A DNA stretch of 64,000 bases, taken from an uncultured Luminiphilus sp. Lineage in GTDB: Bacteria; Pseudomonadota; Gammaproteobacteria; Pseudomonadales; Halieaceae. The stretch covers positions 1 to 64,000 of the forward strand of contig CAJJBO010000015.1 in assembly GCA_905182485.1 (NCBI GenBank), in the 5' to 3' direction. Shown here one piece after another: positions 1 through 12,535 of this stretch (within the stretch, counting starts at the first letter, position 1; each line of letters begins with the position of its first letter). The notes under the pieces are model-generated. The model saw only the letters and a list, made by a program, of their open reading frames with translations. It made no database searches and was not told where the DNA came from. Position numbers and translations under genes: made by a program.

Positions 1-357
1 GATCTCGTGACTCACGCCACGCCCTGATTTCAGTGCGCGTCCTCGGTGCAGACAAGAATTGTGGAACCCCTTTAATTCGCCGGACTCGGTGAGCACCATT
101 AAAATCGAATAGCCAGCAACATCGTGAACATAAAAATCGCCCGCACTGCTGATCTCTGTCTCCCGGCACAGTGACTGCCACACTTTCGGCCACAGTTGAC
201 GCTTTTCCTGTTCGTGATACTCACGCGACAGATAGCGGTCTACTGATAACGGCTCGGAGCCTAGGTAGGTCTCTGTACTTTCTCGCAGTGATTGCGGTAC
301 CGGCCGAGACTCTTGATCAAGCAACTCTTGATAACTCAGAAAATCGGGTCTTTTCAT
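1..357 (-). CDS. Rieske-type ring-hydroxylating oxygenase, N-terminal part
   Basis: The gene runs off the left edge; 119 residues are visible. Residues 101-106 read S-C-L-H-R-G, the first Cys-x-His half of a Rieske [2Fe-2S] site as found in aromatic-ring and sterol-type oxygenase alpha subunits; the second Cys-x2-His pair and the iron-binding catalytic domain lie outside the window. A region typical of the family precedes it (Y-H-E-Q-E-K-R-Q-L-W-P-K-V-W-Q, about 47-61). The ATG follows the P450 stop codon by only two bases, so it is the last visible gene of a leftward unit with P450, ATP-grasp and FAD monooxygenase genes. The family hydroxylates or demethylates organic substrates with electrons from a reductase or ferredoxin. 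The substrate cannot be told from this fragment. Confidence 0.85.
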   Translation of the reverse strand, partial: MKRPDFLSYQELLDQESRPVPQSLRESTETYLGSEPLSVDRYLSREYHEQEKRQLWPKVWQSLCRETEISSAGDFYVHDVAGYSILMVLTESGELKGFHNSCLHRGRALKSGRGVSHEI

Positions 358-359
358 AA

Positions 360-1634
360 CTAAACCTTAAGCATTAATGATGGAGACGGCAGATCACGAA
401 ATCGTCTTGCTAAACGAGATGTGTAGGGTCCGTCAATCCGCGCAAACAGTACATTAGGGCTGTGCTTCAGCGGGTTCTTTCCCTCAACCAGCGCCCAGTC
501 GGTGGTGCGATTCAGCAACCCCGTCAGCGCAACCTGCATCTCCATTCTGGCCAACTGCGCGCCCAAACAAAAGTGCGTGCCCTGCCCCAAAGGCCAGGTG
601 ACTATCAGCATTCTCTCGCGCCACACTCATTGCTCCCGCCGTCAGTGAATATCGACTCGTCACGATTGCCCGCTGCAAAACGGACCATCAAAAAAAGCGC
701 CTTCTGGAATATCTACGCCCCCAATCTCTGTGTCTGCCGTCGCGCGACGCCACATACCACTGGTGGGCGTCTCAAGCCGCAAAATTTCCTCAACCGCTGC
801 CGGTATGAGATCGGGGTGCTGCCGCAACATCGCTTGCTGGTCGGGATTCTGGATCAGCAATAACCACGCCGCCTGCAATCGCGCTGGTCGATGTTTCATT
901 ACCCGCGACGAGAATTTGCTGAATCATCCCCAAGGCCTCTGGCTTGGTCAGCAAGCGACCCCTCATCAATCGTATTGTTAGCCAAATCGGAGATAATGTT
1001 GTCCTCGGGCGCCTCGCGCATGGACATCAACGCAGCAAAATAGTGCTGGAACTCAACAATATCTTTGGCATTTTGAATTTGCTCTTCCTCATCGGCGAGC
1101 CGGCCCAATCGACTCGCTGACGCATCGGAACTAACCTACAACGACAGTTCTGACCGAGGCACACCCAACTGATCTGAGATCACGTAGATCGGTAGCGGCA
1201 CACAGAAACGATTAAGAAGGTCCACCTCAGGCTCATCAATCCACTGATTAATCAGCTCGTTGCTCATCTTCTCAACTTCGCTGCGCATCCCCTCGATACG
1301 CTTATTCGAAAACACCTTATTAACCAGATTGCGATATACCCGGTGTCTCGGCGGGTCCTGAGTTAGCAGGGTCTCGACCATCTCATAACCCTGGCCATAA
1401 ATAGTGTTGACCTCCTCGTTGGAGGAGCCCGTGTTGAGTAGCGCGCTAAAGCTTTTCGCGAATGATTTCGCGAATGATTTCGCGAATATCGTCATACCGT
1501 GTCACTACAAAAACATTGGTGCCCGGCATCTGCCATACCGGCGCCTCTTCTTGCAGCTGCTGGTAGACACGAAATGGACATTCCTGCACTTCAGCGCTGA
1601 AAAAATCCAGTTCCGATAGCTTCACTTTGCTCAT
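360..1634 (-). pseudogene. Cytochrome P450, interrupted by several frameshifts
   Basis: Read across frames, this is a complete soluble bacterial P450 of about 420 residues. It has the N-terminal V-T-R-Y-D-D-I-R-E-I-I, an I-helix A-G-N-E-T-S-T-S (near 890-910), the E-x-x-R of the K helix in E-E-I-L-R-L-E (near 800), and the heme loop F-G-Q-G-T-H-F-C-L-G-A with its Cys ligand (near 560-590). At least five frame changes are needed, near 1455, 1130, 965, 870, 670-630 and 586; the last is explained by an extra G on the coding strand in a run of four. A good Shine-Dalgarno (AAAGGAGG) precedes the ATG at 1634, which overlaps the reconstructed stop of the ATP-grasp gene as ATGA. It may be a decayed gene or an intact gene in poor sequence; the many breaks favour caution. 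A ferredoxin that could serve it lies at 9761. Confidence 0.85.
1456..1492. repeat. 12-bp tandem repeat inside the P450 gene
   Basis: Three consecutive copies of a 12-base unit (GCGAATGATTTC and a final degenerate copy) lie at the start of the P450. In the coding frame they give repeats of I-R-E-I; in the shifted frame they give F-A-K-S. The P450 family has one copy of this helix segment, so the array looks like a local expansion. The first frame break of the gene is immediately next to it. Confidence 0.7.
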
Positions 1635-2930
1635 TTCAGGGCCTCCTTTAAAATCAAATCTGCGTCGGGAAAAGCACTCTCTGGAAGAGAGCGGGTTTTT
1701 GCCTCAACGAATGACGCAAAATCGCCGACCACTATTTGCCACACAAAATAACGTGCTGAACCGCTCTATTTCCATCTCAAACGGGGTAAACCCCATGGGA
1801 ATATACGAAAAGTCAGCCGCCCCATGGGCATACAAATGCTGGCTCTGAAAGGCTTCCAGCGCTTCTCTATCTTGACAATCCACCATATCGAAAAATGCGA
1901 CCGCAGGCTGATCCACGCCGAGTCGCTGCAAGTATTGGGCGGGAAAGAGCCCCCCTGTCCACCGGGCATTGATTTCGGTGATCATGATGTCATCGCCAGA
2001 GATGAAATAGTCGATGCCGCAGTTCACTCCCCTCTCAGAGACATAGCCATGGTGACGCGCATACTCGCCGACCCGATAGAGCATCTCGCGATGCGAGTCC
2101 ATAATCGCCAGCTCAGGAGAGAGGTAATTACCTACCCACTTTCCGCCAGCAAATAGCAGCTGTCGCACATTACTGATCTCGACTCGCTCGGGCGTGATGG
2201 TGAGGTCTACGGTCATTTCTTGCCAGTTGCCCGCATCCAACACCCGTTGCAGTAACACCAGCACCTCATCGTCATACTCCTCGATCCGCTCTAAACACTG
2301 TGCGGTAGAGCTCACCTTGAAGACGTTGCGAGAACCGGCAAGGCCTAACAACTTCATCATCAAACCAGCTGCGTTAGCCTCAAAAAAGTGATCGGCCTCG
2401 CCGGCTGCGATAGCGGATTTGGCGTAGACCTGAGTGTGGGGAACCGGTAACCCCGCCACAGGAGCATGCTGGGCAAAGTGCAACTTAGAATTCACATTAC
2501 GACTCATATCCAGCGCGGATTGATCCTGATGCAGCGGAAAATTGCTTCCACTCCACATATAGAGGTTGAGCAGCTCCACCGTTGGCAGAGTCTGGGAGAC
2601 ACTTTCATAGAAGCCATCGAGGGGATGGTATTGCCAGTGCGATGCCGGCACTGATTCCAACCCCATCTGCTGGAACATGTGGCTGTAATGGCGTAAATGA
2701 GCGTGCCAGGGCGCCTCTTGAAACGCCTCGGCGAGCGCGACATGGTCCACTTTTTTACCCAGACCCGTTAACGCGATCTGCAACGCACACGTCAGCACTT
2801 GATTTTCATAGTGATCGACTTGTTGCTTTGGCGTGAGCGACCCCAGATCGTGATGCAGCGAGCAATCATCGCCGGCCATCGCGTATAAGGCTGAGCCTGC
2901 TTGCTCCGGTACAAATGATCCAACTTGCAT
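1631..2930 (-). CDS. ATP-grasp superfamily protein, one frameshift near the 3' end
   Basis: A predicted ATP-dependent ligase of unknown substrate. The clearest signature is I-T-E-I-N-A-R-W-T-G-G at about residues 317-327, preceded by G-I-D-Y-F at 305-309; this is the metal/ATP-binding strand E-x-N of ATP-grasp enzymes that make amide or thioester-type bonds through an acyl phosphate. About 300 residues of N-terminal sequence match no family I can name. The long frame stops at 1704 after an unconvincing tail; shifting one base near 1765 gives a better C-terminus (S-G-S-A-R-Y-F-V-W-Q-I-V-V-G-D-F) ending E-A-L-K at 1631, where TGA overlaps the P450 ATG. A Shine-Dalgarno AGAGGAA lies before the ATG at 2930. 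Its coupling to P450, Rieske and FAD oxygenase genes suggests a role in building or modifying a specialised metabolite. The ATP-grasp call is confident; the function is not. Confidence 0.75.
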
Positions 2931-3042
2931 TCAAAATTCCTCTTTTGGCGTCGATCCAAGGCGACCCGCCGTCGTGTCACCGCGTCACAATTCCCTACCT
3001 AGCGGGTCGACAGCAGACTGAGCCGTCACTGCCAACCTGCCA

Positions 3043-4224
3043 TTATGCTGAGATCCCTGCCGCTTTGAGACCCATTGCTTCCAGCACGTTAGCGCGAGAT
3101 GAGGCGGCGCGTAGTTGCCCAGTGAGGCCGGCAAACCCATCACCAGCAATCGTATCCATCTGCAGCCCAGCGGCATGATTATCCGAAAGGATCGGCGCTA
3201 AATCACGCGCAAACTGCCGATCAAACTGCTGCAGTATCGGCAACACCTGCCGCTCAGAAAATCCGGGGCTTAGCTCAGCAATCATGTTCGCCAGTTGATC
3301 CGCAACGCGGAAGCACGTGTTCATCCCCATGCTGCGTGCGGGATGCATCGCATGCCGCGCATCTCCCATTAATACCGCAGCGCCCTCGCCCTCATAGGCC
3401 TCACTTTGCTGCGACACAGGCGGATAGAGTGCACCGAACGTCAACGTCTCAAAATCAAGGGTCGGACACCACTGCCGCAGCTGCTCGTGCAACTGCGACT
3501 CTGGCGCATCACGCCAAAGGGTTAACTCCTCTACCGCTATCGGAAACCCAATTTTAGTACCGCCCCCTGTTCGAGGAATCAGTGACAGCATTCTACTTTG
3601 CGTCAGGTGAACGTCGAGCGTTCGCTTTTCGGGAACCGTGCGCTGCCTGCCATAGAGCACTGCAATCGGATGGTGGTAGCGATGGCGCTGAATATCGATA
3701 TCGAGACGGGATCGCACACTCGAGCCGGTGCCATCCGCGCCGACCAGCAGAGTGCAGGATATCTCCTCGGCCCCTTGCGGCGACTCCCAAGACAAATGCC
3801 AACAGGCTTGCGCTCTCGTCAAAGACCAATGTTTTGCACCCAATGTGCACCGTGCGCCATTAACGATGGCCCGATCTAAGAGCACACGACCGATATCCTC
3901 GTGATTCAAGAACAAGAACCACGGCGCGCAGTCTTTATGCTCTGGCACCGGAATCGTGACGATGTGCTCATGGGATGCATCAAACCAGCGAGTACCAAAG
4001 CGCTTTTCCCCGCCTGCTAGCAGTAAGCTATCCCAAATACCCCAGCGCGACAGGACGGGTGCCATTGCCGGCTGAATATGATCGCCCCGCGCCGTATCGA
4101 GCGGCTGATCACTCCGGTCGATCAAACGGACACTGAAACCATTACTTGTCAGTGCCGTTGCCAGGGCAGATCCGGCAATACCCGCACCGATGATGGCAAC
4201 ATCAACCTGCTCCCTGCTGTTCAC
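3043..4224 (-). CDS. FAD-dependent monooxygenase, PHBH/UbiH-like
   Basis: A 393-residue group A flavoprotein hydroxylase. Three family motifs are in order: the dinucleotide fold G-A-G-I-A-G at residues 13-18, the G-A-D-G motif at 162-165 that contacts FAD and NAD(P)H, and G-D-A-R-H-A-M-H-P at 287-295 that binds the FAD ribose. Such enzymes use NAD(P)H and O2 to hydroxylate or epoxidise aromatic or similar substrates in the cytoplasm. The start is the GTG at 4222-4224, with AAGGGGGT upstream; a nearby ATG is out of frame. It is the first gene of the leftward oxygenase/ATP-grasp unit, 112 bases before the ATP-grasp gene, and is divergent from an MFS transporter. It is complete, unlike its neighbours. 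The substrate is unknown. Confidence 0.88.
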   Translation of the reverse strand: MNSREQVDVAIIGAGIAGSALATALTSNGFSVRLIDRSDQPLDTARGDHIQPAMAPVLSRWGIWDSLLLAGGEKRFGTRWFDASHEHIVTIPVPEHKDCAPWFLFLNHEDIGRVLLDRAIVNGARCTLGAKHWSLTRAQACWHLSWESPQGAEEISCTLLVGADGTGSSVRSRLDIDIQRHRYHHPIAVLYGRQRTVPEKRTLDVHLTQSRMLSLIPRTGGGTKIGFPIAVEELTLWRDAPESQLHEQLRQWCPTLDFETLTFGALYPPVSQQSEAYEGEGAAVLMGDARHAMHPARSMGMNTCFRVADQLANMIAELSPGFSERQVLPILQQFDRQFARDLAPILSDNHAAGLQMDTIAGDGFAGLTGQLRAASSRANVLEAMGLKAAGISA

Positions 4225-4401
4225 CAGACCCCCTTAACGTTCATGACACGCCTCCCACAATGCGCTGACGACAGCCTACCTCAAAACACTTTTCGCACTC
4301 AAAAATAAACCCTGCCCTGATGGCTTTCCTGATGACTCTGCGCAGGCCAGCACCGTAAAAACTGCGAGCCTCATCGTTACAATACCGACAAGGGTAGTGT
4401 A

Positions 4402-4411
4402 GTGTCGACAC
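4402..4411. promoter_or_regulatory. Candidate operator palindrome before the MFS gene
   Basis: GTGTCGACAC is a perfect 10-base palindrome in the 209-base divergent region between the FAD monooxygenase and MFS genes, just upstream of the MFS Shine-Dalgarno. A TACAAT hexamer lies about 25 bases before it. This could be a regulator site, but it is short and no regulator gene is adjacent. Confidence 0.25.
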
Positions 4412-4433
4412 AGTGTTAAGGGGAGGCAAATCG

Positions 4434-5591
4434 ATGCCAAAAGCACCTCAGGATCGTCGCAAATGGCCTGTCCTAAGCGGCTTGTTTCTGGTTTACATGG
4501 CCTCTAATGGCATTACGCTGCACACCCTGCCACTGCTCTATCCCGAACTCATCGAAACCTTTGGCTGGCGTGCCAGTGAAGTCACGCTACCCGCGACGGT
4601 TTTCTTCATTGTCGGCGCACTCACCTCGCCACCCGCCGGGTGGTTATTAGATCGCTATTCGTCACGACTGATCATTGCATTGGGCGGACTCTTGCTTTGC
4701 ATTGGATTAGTGGCGTACGGCATGACACAGACCTTATGGCAACTGGTTGCCGTGTATGCCCTACTCGGGCTGGCACTATCCCTGTGCGGCCTCGTCTCCA
4801 ATATGGTCATGCTCACAAGCTGGTTCGCTAGCGGGCGCGGACGCGCTACTGGCATTTTGCTCATGGCCTCGAGCCTGGGGGGGGCGCTGTTCCCGTTTAT
4901 CGTCGGAACGGGGCTAGAGCAGAGCGGCTGGCGCACTACCGTCATGCTTGCAGGAATTGGCGTCGGGATCGCGATACTCGGCAGTGCCTGGTTACTGCTG
5001 CGGGATGGCCGCTTGACGAGCCAGGCCGCTCCGGCGCCATCACCCAGCCCTCGCGGCGTCGGATCACTGAACGCGGCACTCAAAGAGCGACGCTTTTACG
5101 CCATTATCTTTATTACCGGCAGCCTCTGGTTCATCATCATTGCGCTCACGCAACACCAGTCTATCCATCTCGCTCGCGACATTGGCCTCGCTAAAACGCT
5201 GCTGCCGGCGGTATTCAGTCTTTTCTTTGGTAGTTCAGTCATTGGAAAACTGGGCTTTGGCTTGCTGTCAGATCGTTTTGATCTCCATAAAGTGATGGCT
5301 ATTTCGATACTGCTGCTAGCGCTCGCGTTACTCCTTCTGGCCCAGCTATCCGCGCTCGATAGAGTCCTACTGTATCTTTACGCAGTCATGGCAGGCATTG
5401 GCTTCAGCGGGACGTTTACCTGCATCCAGCTTTTGATCGCATCACATTACAGCGGCACTCATTATGGCCGTATTTTAGCCATCGTGGTGCTTATCGATAC
5501 ACTCTGTGGGGCTCTCGGCACAAGAGTCGTCGCGCTACTGCGTGAATCACAAGGCAATTATCAAATGGCGCTGACTATCATGGCTACCTAG
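4434..5591 (+). CDS. MFS transporter, missing the last membrane segment
   Basis: A polytopic membrane protein of about 385 residues with the major facilitator pattern: hydrophobic helices throughout, G-W-L-L-D-R-Y-S-S-R between helices 2 and 3 (the MFS loop motif), and a polar central linker followed by a second half-transporter. I prefer the ATG at 4434 because AAGGGGAGG lies seven bases upstream; a GTG at 4413 would include this site in the protein. The protein stops at about the eleventh helix (S-Q-G-N-Y-Q-M-A-L-T-I-M-A-T), so helix 12 is absent; no continuation is visible in other frames. It overlaps the thioesterase tail to tail by 45 bases. It is divergent from the oxygenase unit and may export or import its product or substrate, which is inference. 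Confidence 0.8.
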   Translation: MPKAPQDRRKWPVLSGLFLVYMASNGITLHTLPLLYPELIETFGWRASEVTLPATVFFIVGALTSPPAGWLLDRYSSRLIIALGGLLLCIGLVAYGMTQTLWQLVAVYALLGLALSLCGLVSNMVMLTSWFASGRGRATGILLMASSLGGALFPFIVGTGLEQSGWRTTVMLAGIGVGIAILGSAWLLLRDGRLTSQAAPAPSPSPRGVGSLNAALKERRFYAIIFITGSLWFIIIALTQHQSIHLARDIGLAKTLLPAVFSLFFGSSVIGKLGFGLLSDRFDLHKVMAISILLLALALLLLAQLSALDRVLLYLYAVMAGIGFSGTFTCIQLLIASHYSGTHYGRILAIVVLIDTLCGALGTRVVALLRESQGNYQMALTIMAT

Positions 5592-6227
5592 GCCTGCGCG
5601 GGTGGAGTTGACGCTATCCAGCGCCTCGCTTAATCGGCCGAGTGAGGCCGCAGCTCCAGCGCTTGATGTAATATCAGTACCTTGTACTAGGGCATGCGAG
5701 CCGCGCGATAGCAAATTCAGCATCGCCTCATCATTGTTAAAAGAGGATTTGTAATGATTCATGAAAGCGACGCCTTCCTCCCGAATGCGACGCCGCTGGA
5801 GCGCACTACAAAACCGACGCACTTCTTCCTCACTTTCTAACACTAAGGGTGGAACCGTAGCAGTTTTTCCATCCGCGCCTTTGGCGACCATTGTGAAATA
5901 ACAGGTGTTCGTGTGCTTACTCATGCCTTCTTGTAAATTTTCGGCCGTCACCTTGATACCCACGACGAGCGACTTATTGCCAACATAGTTTACCGAGCCC
6001 ATCAGCGATACCACCTCGCCCACTTCTACTGGCTGCAGGAACTGCACATTGTCTACCGACACCGTGACGCAGTAATTACCCGCGTGCTTGCTGGCGCATA
6101 CATAGGCGAGCTTATCCATCAGAGACATCAGCGTGCCGCCGTGAACCTTGCCGCCAAAGTTCGCATAACTGGGGACCATGAGCTCAGTGATAACCCGGCG
6201 TGAATACGCGACTGGATGTCCGTCCAT
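5547..6227 (-). CDS. Acyl-CoA thioesterase, hotdog fold
   Basis: A 226-residue protein whose first 150 residues fit the hotdog acyl-CoA thioesterase family. It has N-F-G-G-K-V-H-G-G-T-L-M-S-L-M-D-K, where the Asp is the usual catalytic position, and D-N-V-Q-F-L-Q-P-V-E-V-G-E. These enzymes hydrolyse acyl-CoA to free acid and CoA. The ATG at 6227 has CGAGGAG upstream; longer frames reaching 6467 lack such a site. The C-terminal 60 residues are unlike the family, and the last 15 codons are antisense to the MFS gene, so the 3' end may have been altered by a rearrangement together with the truncated MFS gene. It is divergent from csoR but probably unrelated to metal control. Confidence 0.85.
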   Translation of the reverse strand: MDGHPVAYSRRVITELMVPSYANFGGKVHGGTLMSLMDKLAYVCASKHAGNYCVTVSVDNVQFLQPVEVGEVVSLMGSVNYVGNKSLVVGIKVTAENLQEGMSKHTNTCYFTMVAKGADGKTATVPPLVLESEEEVRRFCSALQRRRIREEGVAFMNHYKSSFNNDEAMLNLLSRGSHALVQGTDITSSAGAAASLGRLSEALDSVNSTRAGLGSHDSQRHLIIAL

Positions 6228-6335
6228 AAAAACTCCTCGCCACTCCTGAGGGGGCAGCTCGATCACCATCTTAGGATAGTCGTTCTTTACCCCTACTACT
6301 GCAATACTTTGACGCCATTGCCAGTCGCTTGCCAA

Positions 6336-6354
6336 TATACCCCATAAGGGTATA
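6336..6354. promoter_or_regulatory. Upstream CsoR-type operator candidate
   Basis: TATACCC and GGGTATA form 7-base inverted arms around a 5-base centre, about 40 bases upstream of the csoR start. C-run/G-run inverted repeats ending in TA are typical of CsoR/RcnR-family operators. Confidence 0.5.
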
Positions 6355-6371
6355 CTTAAGCCTTTCATCAA

Positions 6372-6386
6372 TACCCCCCGGGGGTA
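6372..6386. promoter_or_regulatory. CsoR operator overlapping the csoR translation start region
   Basis: TACCCCCCGGGGGTA is a perfect 15-base palindrome with one central base, seven bases before the csoR ATG. It matches the C-rich/G-rich A-tract-flanked operators known for CsoR-family repressors. The GGGGGT arm would also act as ribosome binding site, so repressor binding at the DNA and the mRNA start lie together. Autoregulation is expected. Confidence 0.65.
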
Positions 6387-6393
6387 GGCTCCT

Positions 6394-6668
6394 ATGCAAA
6401 ACGAGACCAAGCGACGAGCCGATGCACGGCTGGCAAAAATTGAAGGACAGATACGCGCCGTCCGCAAAATGGTGGCAGACGACCGTTATTGTGTTGATGT
6501 CGTCAGGCAAGTCCAAGCGGCCCGCGCCGCCGTCCACGGCGACATTCCGGGATCGTCGAGGACCACGTCGACACATGTGTGCAACATGCCCTCGACAGTG
6601 GCTCACCCGACGACCGCAGAGAAAAAGTCACCGAACTGGTGTCGATTCTGACCGGCAAGAAAAAGTGA
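6394..6668 (+). CDS. CsoR/RcnR family metal-sensing repressor, one frameshift
   Basis: About 90 residues in two frames. The N-terminal half A-R-L-A-K-I-E-G-Q-I-R-A-V-R-K-M followed by Cys33 is characteristic of DUF156 (CsoR/RcnR/FrmR). After a one-base shift near 6545, the second half reads I-V-E-D-H-V-D-T-C, giving the His-x3-Cys that with Cys33 makes the Cys-His-Cys set used by Cu(I)-sensing CsoR; RcnR-type Ni/Co sensors have extra His ligands not seen here. The family is an all-helical tetramer that leaves DNA when metal binds. The gene stops at 6668, overlapping the next start as GTGA. Two palindromes in front of it fit self-repression. Copper as the metal is an inference from ligands. 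Confidence 0.85.
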
Positions 6669-9760: not shown

Positions 9761-10075
9761 CTACATTTGGAACTCAGGTAATCGTACCGTGAGATCCGCC
9801 GTGTCGGCAGCCACCACAATCTGGCAGGCAAGGCGAGAATTGTCCGCCCGGTCTGGACGCAGCCCCAGCATTGCGCTTTCCTGTACGTCGGGAGCAGGCA
9901 AATCACCTGAAACCTCAACAAAACAATGACAGGTGCCACAGATCGCACCTCCACCACAGTCTGCATCAATGCCCGGCACATTATGCTTGAGCGCCGTTTC
10001 CATCAGCGACAGGCCAACGTCCCCATCAACCATGCTCTCGGCCCCATCATGCTGAATAAAAGTGATTACCGTCAT
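9761..10075 (-). CDS. [2Fe-2S] ferredoxin, adrenodoxin/plant-like fold
   Basis: A 104-residue electron carrier. The cluster ligands are Cys40, Cys46, Cys49 and Cys84 (D-C-G-G-G-A-I-C-G-T-C-H-C, then L-A-C-Q), with the C-x5-C-x2-C spacing of adrenodoxin-type ferredoxins that feed P450s and related oxygenases. I chose the ATG at 10075 (M-T-V-I-T-F), the usual family start; a TTG three codons upstream is possible. It lies just downstream of, and in the same direction as, the diiron oxygenase-like gene at 10173-11351, so it may donate electrons to that enzyme. It could also serve the P450 and Rieske oxygenase in the same window, since no other ferredoxin is present. Confidence 0.9.
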   Translation of the reverse strand: MTVITFIQHDGAESMVDGDVGLSLMETALKHNVPGIDADCGGGAICGTCHCFVEVSGDLPAPDVQESAMLGLRPDRADNSRLACQIVVAADTADLTVRLPEFQM

Positions 10076-10172
10076 ACTTCCCAAACCCTCTCACTACGAT
10101 TGTTGTCGGCATACTGCGCCTTCACGCATCAACATTCATCTCAATAAAGCAACGCCATTCCGCGTTGTGTCG

Positions 10173-11351
10173 CTAGGTCGCGGCCACTTGGTCTGAATGA
10201 AGCGCGTCATGAAACGCCGCTAGCATACTCTGTTCATGACTTTGTGCCTCCCCCGTATCGAGGGGCCGCTCGAGCTTCATCCAGTCGATGTCGCCATCGT
10301 CGGACATGGTCTCATACTCAAGAATCCCAAGCTCTTCAAATTTAGGGCGCACCTTGTCGGTCAACAACCCAATTCTGCGCAAATTAGGCACCACGCGCTG
10401 AAACAGTAGATTGCGAAAAGTCGACATCACGAATCCATCTAGAACCTTTCGTCGACTTTCCTCGACGTCCCAGCCAAAGTGCCGAAAAACGTCAGTCGCC
10501 ACCAGCCGTTCGCGACTGATTGCACACGCTTCAAAAGCAAACAGCGCGCGCTCCTCGCGCTCTTCATCGGATAACGTCGTGATGAATTCTTCGAGATAAT
10601 TCACGCCAAAAGTGACATGCCGCGCCTCATCACGCGTTACCAAGTAGACAATATCTTTCAATACCGGGTCAGGCGTTGTCTCCCTAGCAGTATTGAACGC
10701 TGACAACGCCAAGCCTTCGATCACAATCTGCATGCCAATGAATTTAAGATCCCAGCGGGGGTCGGTGAGAATTTTATCGATGATGCTGTTCAGGTGCGTA
10801 TTGATGGGATACATCAGGCCAATACGCTTCTGGATGTACTGATTAAAGACCTCAACATGCCTCGCCTCATCAAAGGTCTGCGATGCCGCATATAATTTGG
10901 CATTGAACGTTGGTGCGCAGGAACAGAGCTGACTGGCCACTAATAACGCACCCTGCTCGCCATGGAGGAACTGAGACAGACTCCATGCATTCATGTGCAG
11001 CCAAAATTCGTCGCGTTCCTTATCGCTCAGCGCTAAGTAGGGCGGATAGTCGTGCAGATTCATGAGCTCAGCTTGCCCCGCCTCTTCAGGCCAAGGACGA
11101 TCCCAATCGATATCGATCTGCGGATCCCAATTAAGTTGCTTACCCAGCTCATATAACTTTTTTATTCGATCGTCCTGAACCGAATAGTCCCAGTTATAAG
11201 AGCCGGTGAGCGGTGTCTTGAAGATTTGCGCAACATGATCGACATCTTGGCTGGTCAGCACATCCTCTAGATCCGGATTTTCGGTGGGGTAATCAGGATT
11301 CGCAAATTGTTGGATTTTACGTGGCGTTTCAGTGTTCCATTCAATCTTCAT
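10173..11351 (-). CDS. Ferritin-like diiron carboxylate protein, probable oxygenase
   Basis: A 392-residue protein with a four-helix diiron site. The ligand set visible is Glu132 (H-G-E-Q-G-A), Glu162 and His165 (D-E-A-R-H-V-E-V-F), Glu212 (V-I-E-G-L), and Glu242 with His245 (D-E-A-R-H-V-T-F-G), that is E, ExxH, E, ExxH as in ribonucleotide reductase R2 and bacterial multicomponent monooxygenases. The N-oxygenase AurF has an additional His not seen here. R2-type activity is unlikely because no radical Tyr context or NrdA gene is nearby. A strong Shine-Dalgarno (GAGGAG) precedes the ATG. With the ferredoxin behind it and an AraC regulator in front, it is likely an inducible O2-activating enzyme. 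The substrate is unknown. Confidence 0.8.
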   Translation of the reverse strand: MKIEWNTETPRKIQQFANPDYPTENPDLEDVLTSQDVDHVAQIFKTPLTGSYNWDYSVQDDRIKKLYELGKQLNWDPQIDIDWDRPWPEEAGQAELMNLHDYPPYLALSDKERDEFWLHMNAWSLSQFLHGEQGALLVASQLCSCAPTFNAKLYAASQTFDEARHVEVFNQYIQKRIGLMYPINTHLNSIIDKILTDPRWDLKFIGMQIVIEGLALSAFNTARETTPDPVLKDIVYLVTRDEARHVTFGVNYLEEFITTLSDEEREERALFAFEACAISRERLVATDVFRHFGWDVEESRRKVLDGFVMSTFRNLLFQRVVPNLRRIGLLTDKVRPKFEELGILEYETMSDDGDIDWMKLERPLDTGEAQSHEQSMLAAFHDALHSDQVAAT

Positions 11352-11443
11352 GACATTTCTCCTCTAGAGCGTCACATGATCCAGCGGTGCCTCCGAGTCC
11401 TCAAGGTGATTACTTGCCAACGCGAGGTCATTTATGGCCAAAT

Positions 11444-12535
11444 ATGGCGATGCAAGGTAGCTCCATTCCCAGCCAATACGTCCTGCTGCTCGTCGATCTA
11501 GCGGTCGAACGCGGCTGTTCGATAGACGCGATCTGCTCCGGCACACAGTTAACACTGCCCTCACTGTCCCAGCTGGGCGCGAGAGTGGATACGGGTGAGG
11601 TTGATCGCCTCACCATGAACGTGTTGGCACACACCAGCGACCCCCTAATAGGATTGGCGCTGGGACAGCGACTCAATCTCAGCGCTCACGCGGTGATCGG
11701 GCAAGCGTTTCTTACCTGCTCAAACCTAGCTGAAGCGCTCGACCTCTTGGATCGCTACGGCGCATTGCTGATGGGGACTCGCATACAGTTAATTAGGACT
11801 CCGAACAGCGAAGCGGATCGAGATGGCATGATCGTCGTACTAGATCAGACAGAACCAATGAAACGCTTTAATTACGAAGTGATCTTTTCGGCAATACAAA
11901 AAACACTCTCAGATCTACTGGGATCAGCGGTGCCCAATATCAAAGTCTCCTTTCCCTTTTCTGCCCCCCCTGACCTGACCCCCTTTACCCGCATATTTGG
12001 CGAACAAATATTTTTTGACGCCGCGCAGGCCGAGTTCAGCTTGCCACGGGACATTACCAGGCTCACTTTGCCATCCTCAAACCGAACGCTGCGCGAATTA
12101 TATGAGTCAGAGTGCGCACGCTTACTGGCGAGCCTGTCGGACAGCGCGAGCCTCACAGAACAAACACTCGCATTAATAGATAAGCTCGAAGGGCAATACC
12201 CGCAACTCGAGCAGGTGGCGTCAATGCTCAATATGAGCACGCGTAGTTTTAGACGACGCCTCAAATCCGAAGCAGCTTCTTTTCAGGGACTCCTCAATGA
12301 CGTTCGAGTCAAGCACGCGCGACGCTATCTACGAGACACCAACCTATCAGTCGAAGCGATAGCGGTCTCACTGGGATTTAACGACGCCTCCAATTTTCGA
12401 CGTGCCTTTATCCAGTGGACCGGAGAATCGCCGGCAGAGTGGCGACGCACATCGCTGGGTGATAACCCAACGAACCTAGAGAGCCCTGACCTCGAACCCG
12501 CTAATGGGGAAGTGCAGAAACACAGCGTCACCTGA
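11444..12535 (+). CDS. AraC-family regulator with arabinose-binding-like N domain
   Basis: About 363 residues. The N-terminal 200 residues fit the PF12625-type sensor domain found in OruR/ArgR-like AraC regulators (I-P-S-Q-Y-V-L-L-L-V-D-L-A, then H-A-V-I-G-Q-A-F-L-T-C). The C-terminus has the double helix-turn-helix of AraC/XylS: A-S-M-L-N-M-S-T-R-S-F-R-R-R-L in the first and V-S-L-G-F-N-D-A-S-N-F-R-R-A-F in the second. The start is uncertain: ATG 11444 fits the domain, while GTG 11387 would add 19 residues. It is divergent from the diiron/ferredoxin genes, so it probably controls them in response to a metabolite. It overlaps the GST-like gene tail to tail by 60 bases. Confidence 0.85.
   Translation: MAMQGSSIPSQYVLLLVDLAVERGCSIDAICSGTQLTLPSLSQLGARVDTGEVDRLTMNVLAHTSDPLIGLALGQRLNLSAHAVIGQAFLTCSNLAEALDLLDRYGALLMGTRIQLIRTPNSEADRDGMIVVLDQTEPMKRFNYEVIFSAIQKTLSDLLGSAVPNIKVSFPFSAPPDLTPFTRIFGEQIFFDAAQAEFSLPRDITRLTLPSSNRTLRELYESECARLLASLSDSASLTEQTLALIDKLEGQYPQLEQVASMLNMSTRSFRRRLKSEAASFQGLLNDVRVKHARRYLRDTNLSVEAIAVSLGFNDASNFRRAFIQWTGESPAEWRRTSLGDNPTNLESPDLEPANGEVQKHSVT

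Follow-up and report, generated by a model that had tools for sequence, protein, structure and literature searches.

Operons in which genes for an oxygenase-cupin and a Rieske protein accompany those of ATP-grasp peptide ligases have been described previously (Biol Direct 2010, PMC2922099), and they are the nearest published theme to the Luminiphilus gene unit reported here, which likewise places an ATP-grasp ligase beside redox tailoring enzymes, a Rieske protein among them. Those operons are, however, defined by the oxygenase-cupin gene, which is absent from the unit of any congener examined; the Luminiphilus unit instead combines a full Rieske oxygenase alpha subunit with a cytochrome P450 and a FAD-dependent monooxygenase (FMO). 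The carnitine and glycine-betaine monooxygenases (CntA, 6y9c, and GbcA) are among the nearest characterised relatives of the cluster Rieske enzyme, whose bridging Glu aligns with CntA E205, a residue also present in several catabolic paralogues. Nevertheless, the score against the GbcA NCBIfam equivalog is 97 bits, with a cut-off of 670, and the unit, unlike these systems, has no dedicated reductase gene.

As far as the ligase (hereafter ATPG) is concerned, the closest structures are those of SAOUHSC_02373 (PDB 7r8q/7r8p), which we take to be an L-amino acid ligase, and of the Streptomyces ATP-grasp peptide ligase 8ynd. ATPG has in common with both the ATP-grasp fold, as they are its best Foldseek matches (E 1e-13, TM 0.57-0.70), and with 8ynd an EINxRW-type metal-binding motif; it differs from both in showing only 12-15% identity, with no significant sequence match, and in having an N-terminal half of its own (GDDCSL... 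NSK...). A further comparison is offered by a P450-Rieske pair of the K189A clade, which resembles the pair described here in being adjacent, in the same order, 38-40% identical and carried by genomes that also hold ATPG, but in which ATPG lies elsewhere in the genome and which falls, in the trees, in separate long-branch clades. In the literature consulted, no described pathway with the ATP-grasp, P450 and Rieske set was found, and no paper combined the three with a biosynthetic gene cluster and a marine context.

Results

The window analysed, a stretch of 64,000 nucleotides, begins with the first base of contig C15 in the source genome (2.17 Mb, 70% complete), so that the left part of the unit is missing. 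Coordinates and strands, together with the PF01494 and PF07690 matches, bear out the originally predicted arrangement of FMO, ATPG, P450 and Rieske genes in one leftward row with a divergent MFS gene. Specifically, the minus strand carries the N-terminal 119 aa of the Rieske non-haem iron oxygenase alpha subunit (1..357), cut by the contig end and 453 aa long in congeners; the P450 (394..1634), frameshifted in the window and intact in congeners (413-414 aa); ATPG (1631..2930), a ligase outside named families of 432 aa in congeners, whose window ORF ends early at 1704 owing to one extra base near 1763; and an intact, UbiH-like FMO (3043..4224; PF01494, E 7e-27). A divergent intergenic region of 188 bp (4225..4412) separates the FMO from the MFS transporter, of the OFA/monocarboxylate type, on the plus strand (4413..5621). 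Beyond it lies, on the minus strand, a hotdog thioesterase of the YciA-like/4HBT type (5706..6467), a conserved neighbour which adjoins the MFS gene in congeners too and whose membership in the unit is uncertain.

ATPG and P450 do share the predicted ATGA (bases 1634-1631, minus strand), and the same 4-nt stop/start overlap is kept in most congeners, so that the two genes may be translationally coupled. Two other details of the original prediction had to be corrected. The P450 and Rieske genes are not two bases apart, a value due to a wrong-frame reading caused by the frameshifts; the P450 stop lies at 394-396, which leaves 36 nt between the two genes, in the window as in the sister species. 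Likewise, the MFS gene does not end at 5591, since its match runs to 5621, and the stop codon met at 5591, before the match is complete, is probably due to an assembly indel. Across congeners, the gaps within the unit measure -4, about 36-41, 54 and 66-117 bp. Promoter and terminator scans gave nothing above shuffles, also in the FMO/MFS intergenic region, and no Rfam match was found in this region or over the whole window.

The leftward extension that had been suggested could be obtained from a second contig of the same genome, C23, whose end overlaps the C15 start over ~1.8 kb at 97% identity (window 1-1850 = L015 12390-14239). This contig provides the remainder of the Rieske gene (L015 11407-12594), followed by a convergent GST gene, SelU and SelD. 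The two contigs had been left unmerged in the assembly despite their overlap. With respect to C23 and to the sister species, C15 has an extra base at eight places, at seven of which a homopolymer run is lengthened, and most of the ATPG and P450 frameshifts are explained by these single-base insertions. Gene calls close to the C15 end are unreliable; indels occur in the adjoining MFS, DUF429 and copper-associated genes of the window as well. By contrast, the P450 gene lacks 5 nt and contains an in-frame TAG in C15 and C23 alike, and a genuine P450 defect in the strain is therefore possible. The same applies to the Rieske gene, whose codons ~17-75 are unlike those of all congeners in both contigs, giving a mosaic (window 1-330, L015 12390-12730; SRPVPQSLRESTETYLGSEPLSVDRYLSREYHEQEKRQ...) whose extent differs between C15 and C23. 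Such a mosaic might be a chimera of the assembly or the outcome of gene conversion involving a Rieske paralogue.

Gene order is kept in nine or more Luminiphilus species. In nine congeners we observed either the full order, YciA - MFS (divergent) - FMO - ATPG - P450 - Rieske - GST (convergent) - SelU - SelD, with an SRAP gene between FMO and ATPG in some of them, or whatever part of it their contigs show. Because the same order is intact in congeners, the set is more than a chance assembly of neighbours; the genes thus proved to be linked in close relatives, as the original prediction implied. In addition, dN/dS values of 0.01-0.12 for all four enzymes across congeners show that they are under purifying selection.

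The hard core of the unit is the triad ATPG-P450-Rieske, with which FMO, MFS and the convergent GST co-occur. Among 57 genomes of the genus, the cluster-type Rieske and the FMO are both present in 16 and both absent from 38, with the Rieske alone in one and the FMO alone in two (Fisher p about 4e-11, a value which ignores kinship); for the Rieske and the MFS the corresponding counts are 15 (both), 2 (Rieske only), 3 (MFS only) and 37 (neither). The GST was found only together with the triad (14/14 in the genus search, in which species are non-independent), and its convergent arrangement is a feature of the main triad site. Several of the absences counted in these comparisons are due to contig breaks, and none of the p-values takes kinship into account. 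In one genome (G705; L040/L069) the triad occupies another chromosomal site, without FMO, MFS or GST, and at this second site another genome (G033; L025) retains only the ATPG 5' end and Rieske pieces, a deletion remnant; the triad therefore moves, and is lost, as a block. We considered the FMO as a member of the hard core and rejected it, as the FMO-MFS pair stands apart from any triad in G697 and, in G705, FMO and triad are unlinked.

At the loci where FMO and triad are unlinked (L074 1105-3592, L076 1-1824), a GbdR-like regulator gene is divergent from the FMO gene, and the methanethiol oxidase gene MtoX lies nearby in both; the regulator scored in L074 reached 472 of the 480 bits required. 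The SRAP gene (HMCES/YedK-type, PF02586), located between FMO and ATPG (L018 10781-11401, with counterparts at this position in L020, L022, L023, L024, L033 and L079), was rejected as a unit member, as several species have it there but others lack it.

The window ATPG reached no curated Pfam or NCBIfam model, including those of the housekeeping families GAR synthetase, PurK, biotin carboxylase and carbamoyl phosphate synthase, so that the housekeeping match that would have spoken against the original prediction did not occur. Its relatives gave only weak ATP-grasp_3 matches (12/25, best E 1e-5), and a PDB sequence search with ATPG profiles returned nothing significant. As judged from these searches, the family is new to the Pfam and NCBIfam libraries. 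Moreover, since the cluster is found in only 17 of the 57 genus genomes, as counted by the cluster-type Rieske, ATPG is not essential.

An AlphaFold (AF2) model built from 22 natural homologues (pLDDT 85, pTM 0.86) matched many PDB ATP-grasp enzymes in Foldseek with a probability of 1.00, and the predicted structure places ATPG in the ATP-grasp superfamily. Peptide and amino-acid ligases were the closest, with 8ynd (E 1e-13) and SAOUHSC_02373 (7r8q, TM 0.64/0.70) as best matches and PurK and GAR synthetase close behind in the ranking. GAR synthetase, PurK and biotin carboxylase are almost as similar to ATPG in fold as the peptide ligases are (TM ~0.6); therefore, the bond type is weakly supported, and a peptide or amino-acid ligase-type activity of ATPG is to be taken as a lead offered by the model. 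In an alignment of 25 diverse members, down to 37% identity, residues K149, K193, E238, D242, N254, R256, D307, E319, N321 and R323 are invariant. From general knowledge of the superfamily, we assume that K149 and K193 are the ATP-binding lysines and that the set D307, E319, N321 and R323 includes the acidic/Asn Mg ligands, and the invariant residues fit a working ATP-grasp site.

The metal, haem and cofactor motifs of the three oxygenases are intact at the sequence level. In intact copies, the P450 (PF00067, E 2e-28) shows the haem-thiolate motif FGQGTHFCLG (FGxGxHxCxG) and the acid-alcohol pair of the I-helix (AGNETS), and its subfamily matches include pentalenolactone synthase and a cyclodipeptide-associated P450. 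In congeners and on contig C23, the Rieske enzyme (PF00355 and PF00848) has the CxH...CxxH site and the E/D-x-Y-H-x4-H catalytic motif, and the FMO carries the GxGxxG, DG and GD motifs of the class A type, as GAGIAG, ADGTGSSVR and GDARHAMHP. Luminiphilus Rieske paralogues (~42%) are accompanied by thiolase-like, acyl-CoA dehydrogenase and acyl-CoA synthetase genes, and the K189A P450-Rieske pair lies near acyl-CoA synthetase, TetR and other P450 genes; the nearest relatives of both enzymes reside in catabolic-looking, acyl-CoA-type islands. The best scores of the MFS protein were with organic-acid carriers, those for lactate and oxalate/formate included (129 bits with SfMCT vs at most 26 bits with efflux families), and by these scores it resembles carboxylate uptake carriers of the OFA/lactate type much more than drug exporters. 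It reached no NCBIfam transporter cut-off, and the direction of transport is therefore a guess.

The ATPG family was found only in the Halieaceae, nearly all of them Luminiphilus, and in one other gammaproteobacterial family (K189A-type), around L048, where 23 of 121 genomes carry it in up to three copies per genome. Even draws of 398 genomes at the phylum, 295 at the order and 369 at the class level contained no carrier besides the source genome. Many ATPG relatives adjoin acyl-CoA dehydrogenase, SDR or enoyl-CoA hydratase genes. The link with P450 and Rieske genes does not extend to ATPG of the K189A-type family: the cases in which one of these lies near it (L104, L105, L119, L121) were rejected as not beyond chance on a rough estimate, these genomes holding roughly 20-40 P450 and 12-27 Rieske matches. 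At E 1e-20, the oxygenase-rich genomes G715-G719 (those of L048, L044, L041, L042 and L046) hold 23-38 P450 and 12-27 Rieske matches each. In L041, L044 and L048, genes for a Na+-coupled NSS transporter and an acyl-CoA dehydrogenase, plus an SDR gene, precede ATPG in an apparent operon. In two genomes of this second family (L110 8988-10961, L112 8726-10669) a GST gene is found 6-10 bp upstream of ATPG, an echo of the Luminiphilus GST.

Discussion

All together, the set of genes is unusual and reproducible, its ligase family is new to the libraries and it is put together from known kinds of enzyme; the unit points to an undescribed pathway building or breaking down a small molecule. With moderate confidence, we regard it as one pathway. 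In the reading that we prefer, to which we assign a probability of roughly 0.4, this would be a dedicated one-small-molecule pathway, made of the ATPG-P450-Rieske triad with an accessory FMO, the divergent MFS and, at the main site, the convergent GST, for the conjugation and oxidation of an imported carboxylate. The MFS transporter would move an organic acid across the membrane; ATPG would activate its carboxylate as an acyl-phosphate and join the activated acid to an amine, through an amide or dipeptide-like bond, another nucleophile being possible; P450, Rieske and FMO would then oxidise the acid or the conjugate at different positions, with ferredoxin and reductase encoded elsewhere, as no gene for either is present in the unit. 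Bond type, order of steps, substrate and direction are all what we infer. The unit also has no amidase or hydrolase for release of the conjugate, which counts against a conjugation pathway. The more specific proposal, that a new ATP-grasp ligase family confined to marine Luminiphilus and K189A-type bacteria acts in an undescribed conjugate-then-oxidise pathway, in which the substrate is ligated and then meets P450, Rieske and FMO, is tentative and rather unlikely to hold in full.

The original prediction of a dedicated, conserved small-molecule unit with a ligase outside known families and no described counterpart was substantiated; its choice of biosynthesis as the direction was not, given the uptake-like MFS and the catabolic islands of the relatives. 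The biosynthesis of a secreted or signalling molecule, in which ATPG would build an amide or dipeptide scaffold, the three oxygenases would tailor it and the MFS would export it, is nonetheless almost as likely as the processing of an imported carboxylate. The patchy distribution and compact operon would suit it, as would a dedicated ligase combined with several mechanistically different oxygenases, the Streptomyces peptide ligase as top fold match of ATPG and the natural-product P450s among the P450 matches, but precursor-forming, carrier-protein, resistance and pathway-specific regulator genes are all missing from the unit, the MFS is of a non-efflux type and relatives of all three triad enzymes are found in catabolic-looking loci. 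It is because of the MFS type and of the neighbourhoods of the relatives that we lean slightly towards an imported carboxylate. Should the unit be purely catabolic, ATPG could mask an amine by ligation ahead of oxygenation, by analogy with the gamma-glutamylation routes for aniline and isopropylamine. The presence of ligase and Rieske within one operon, the GbdR-like regulator adjoining the FMO in two species, and the NSS transporters and acyl-CoA dehydrogenases adjoining the K189A ATPG genes speak for such a role; it nevertheless seems improbable, as the unit has no amidase, the ligase is an ATP-grasp and not a glutamine-synthetase-like enzyme, and the GbdR context is met only where the FMO is away from the triad.

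Decay, or a chance neighbourhood in which the frameshifts mark dead genes, could draw on the two P450 lesions common to both contigs and on the deletion remnant in G033; we consider it very improbable in view of genes that are intact in congeners, of their dN/dS values and of the fact that the overlapping contig lacks the single-base homopolymer insertions behind most of the window frameshifts. Least credible of all is a RiPP system of the graspetide kind, whose precursor peptide would have escaped notice. The adjacency of ATP-grasp and P450 genes recalls such systems, but ATPG does not match graspetide-type Pfam models, a search of the unit gaps in congeners found no precursor, and what speaks against this reading is that the gaps are too small to accommodate a conserved peptide gene, the FMO-ATPG gap holding SRAP where it is longer. 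A defence-system reading was rejected, with no PADLOC match.

For the preferred reading, as for biosynthesis, the unit is of interest because Luminiphilus belongs to a group (OM60/NOR5 clade) which is abundant in coastal seawater, while little is known of the chemistry of Luminiphilus. Tied to three different oxygen-activating enzymes, a ligase family that present libraries lack constitutes a defined target in the search for either a new marine metabolite or a new route by which dissolved organic matter is processed, and intact copies are complete and, at ~5 kb, short enough to express.

With regard to the redox partners, the nearest ferredoxin gene lies at 9761-10084 and adjoins an AurF-like gene. 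This part of the window (9761-12535) comprises the 2Fe-2S ferredoxin, the AurF-like diiron oxygenase (10173-11351) and an AraC-type regulator (11387-12535). At the same place in other congeners, between DUF429 and the AurF-like gene, a second P450 is found (~27% to the triad P450).
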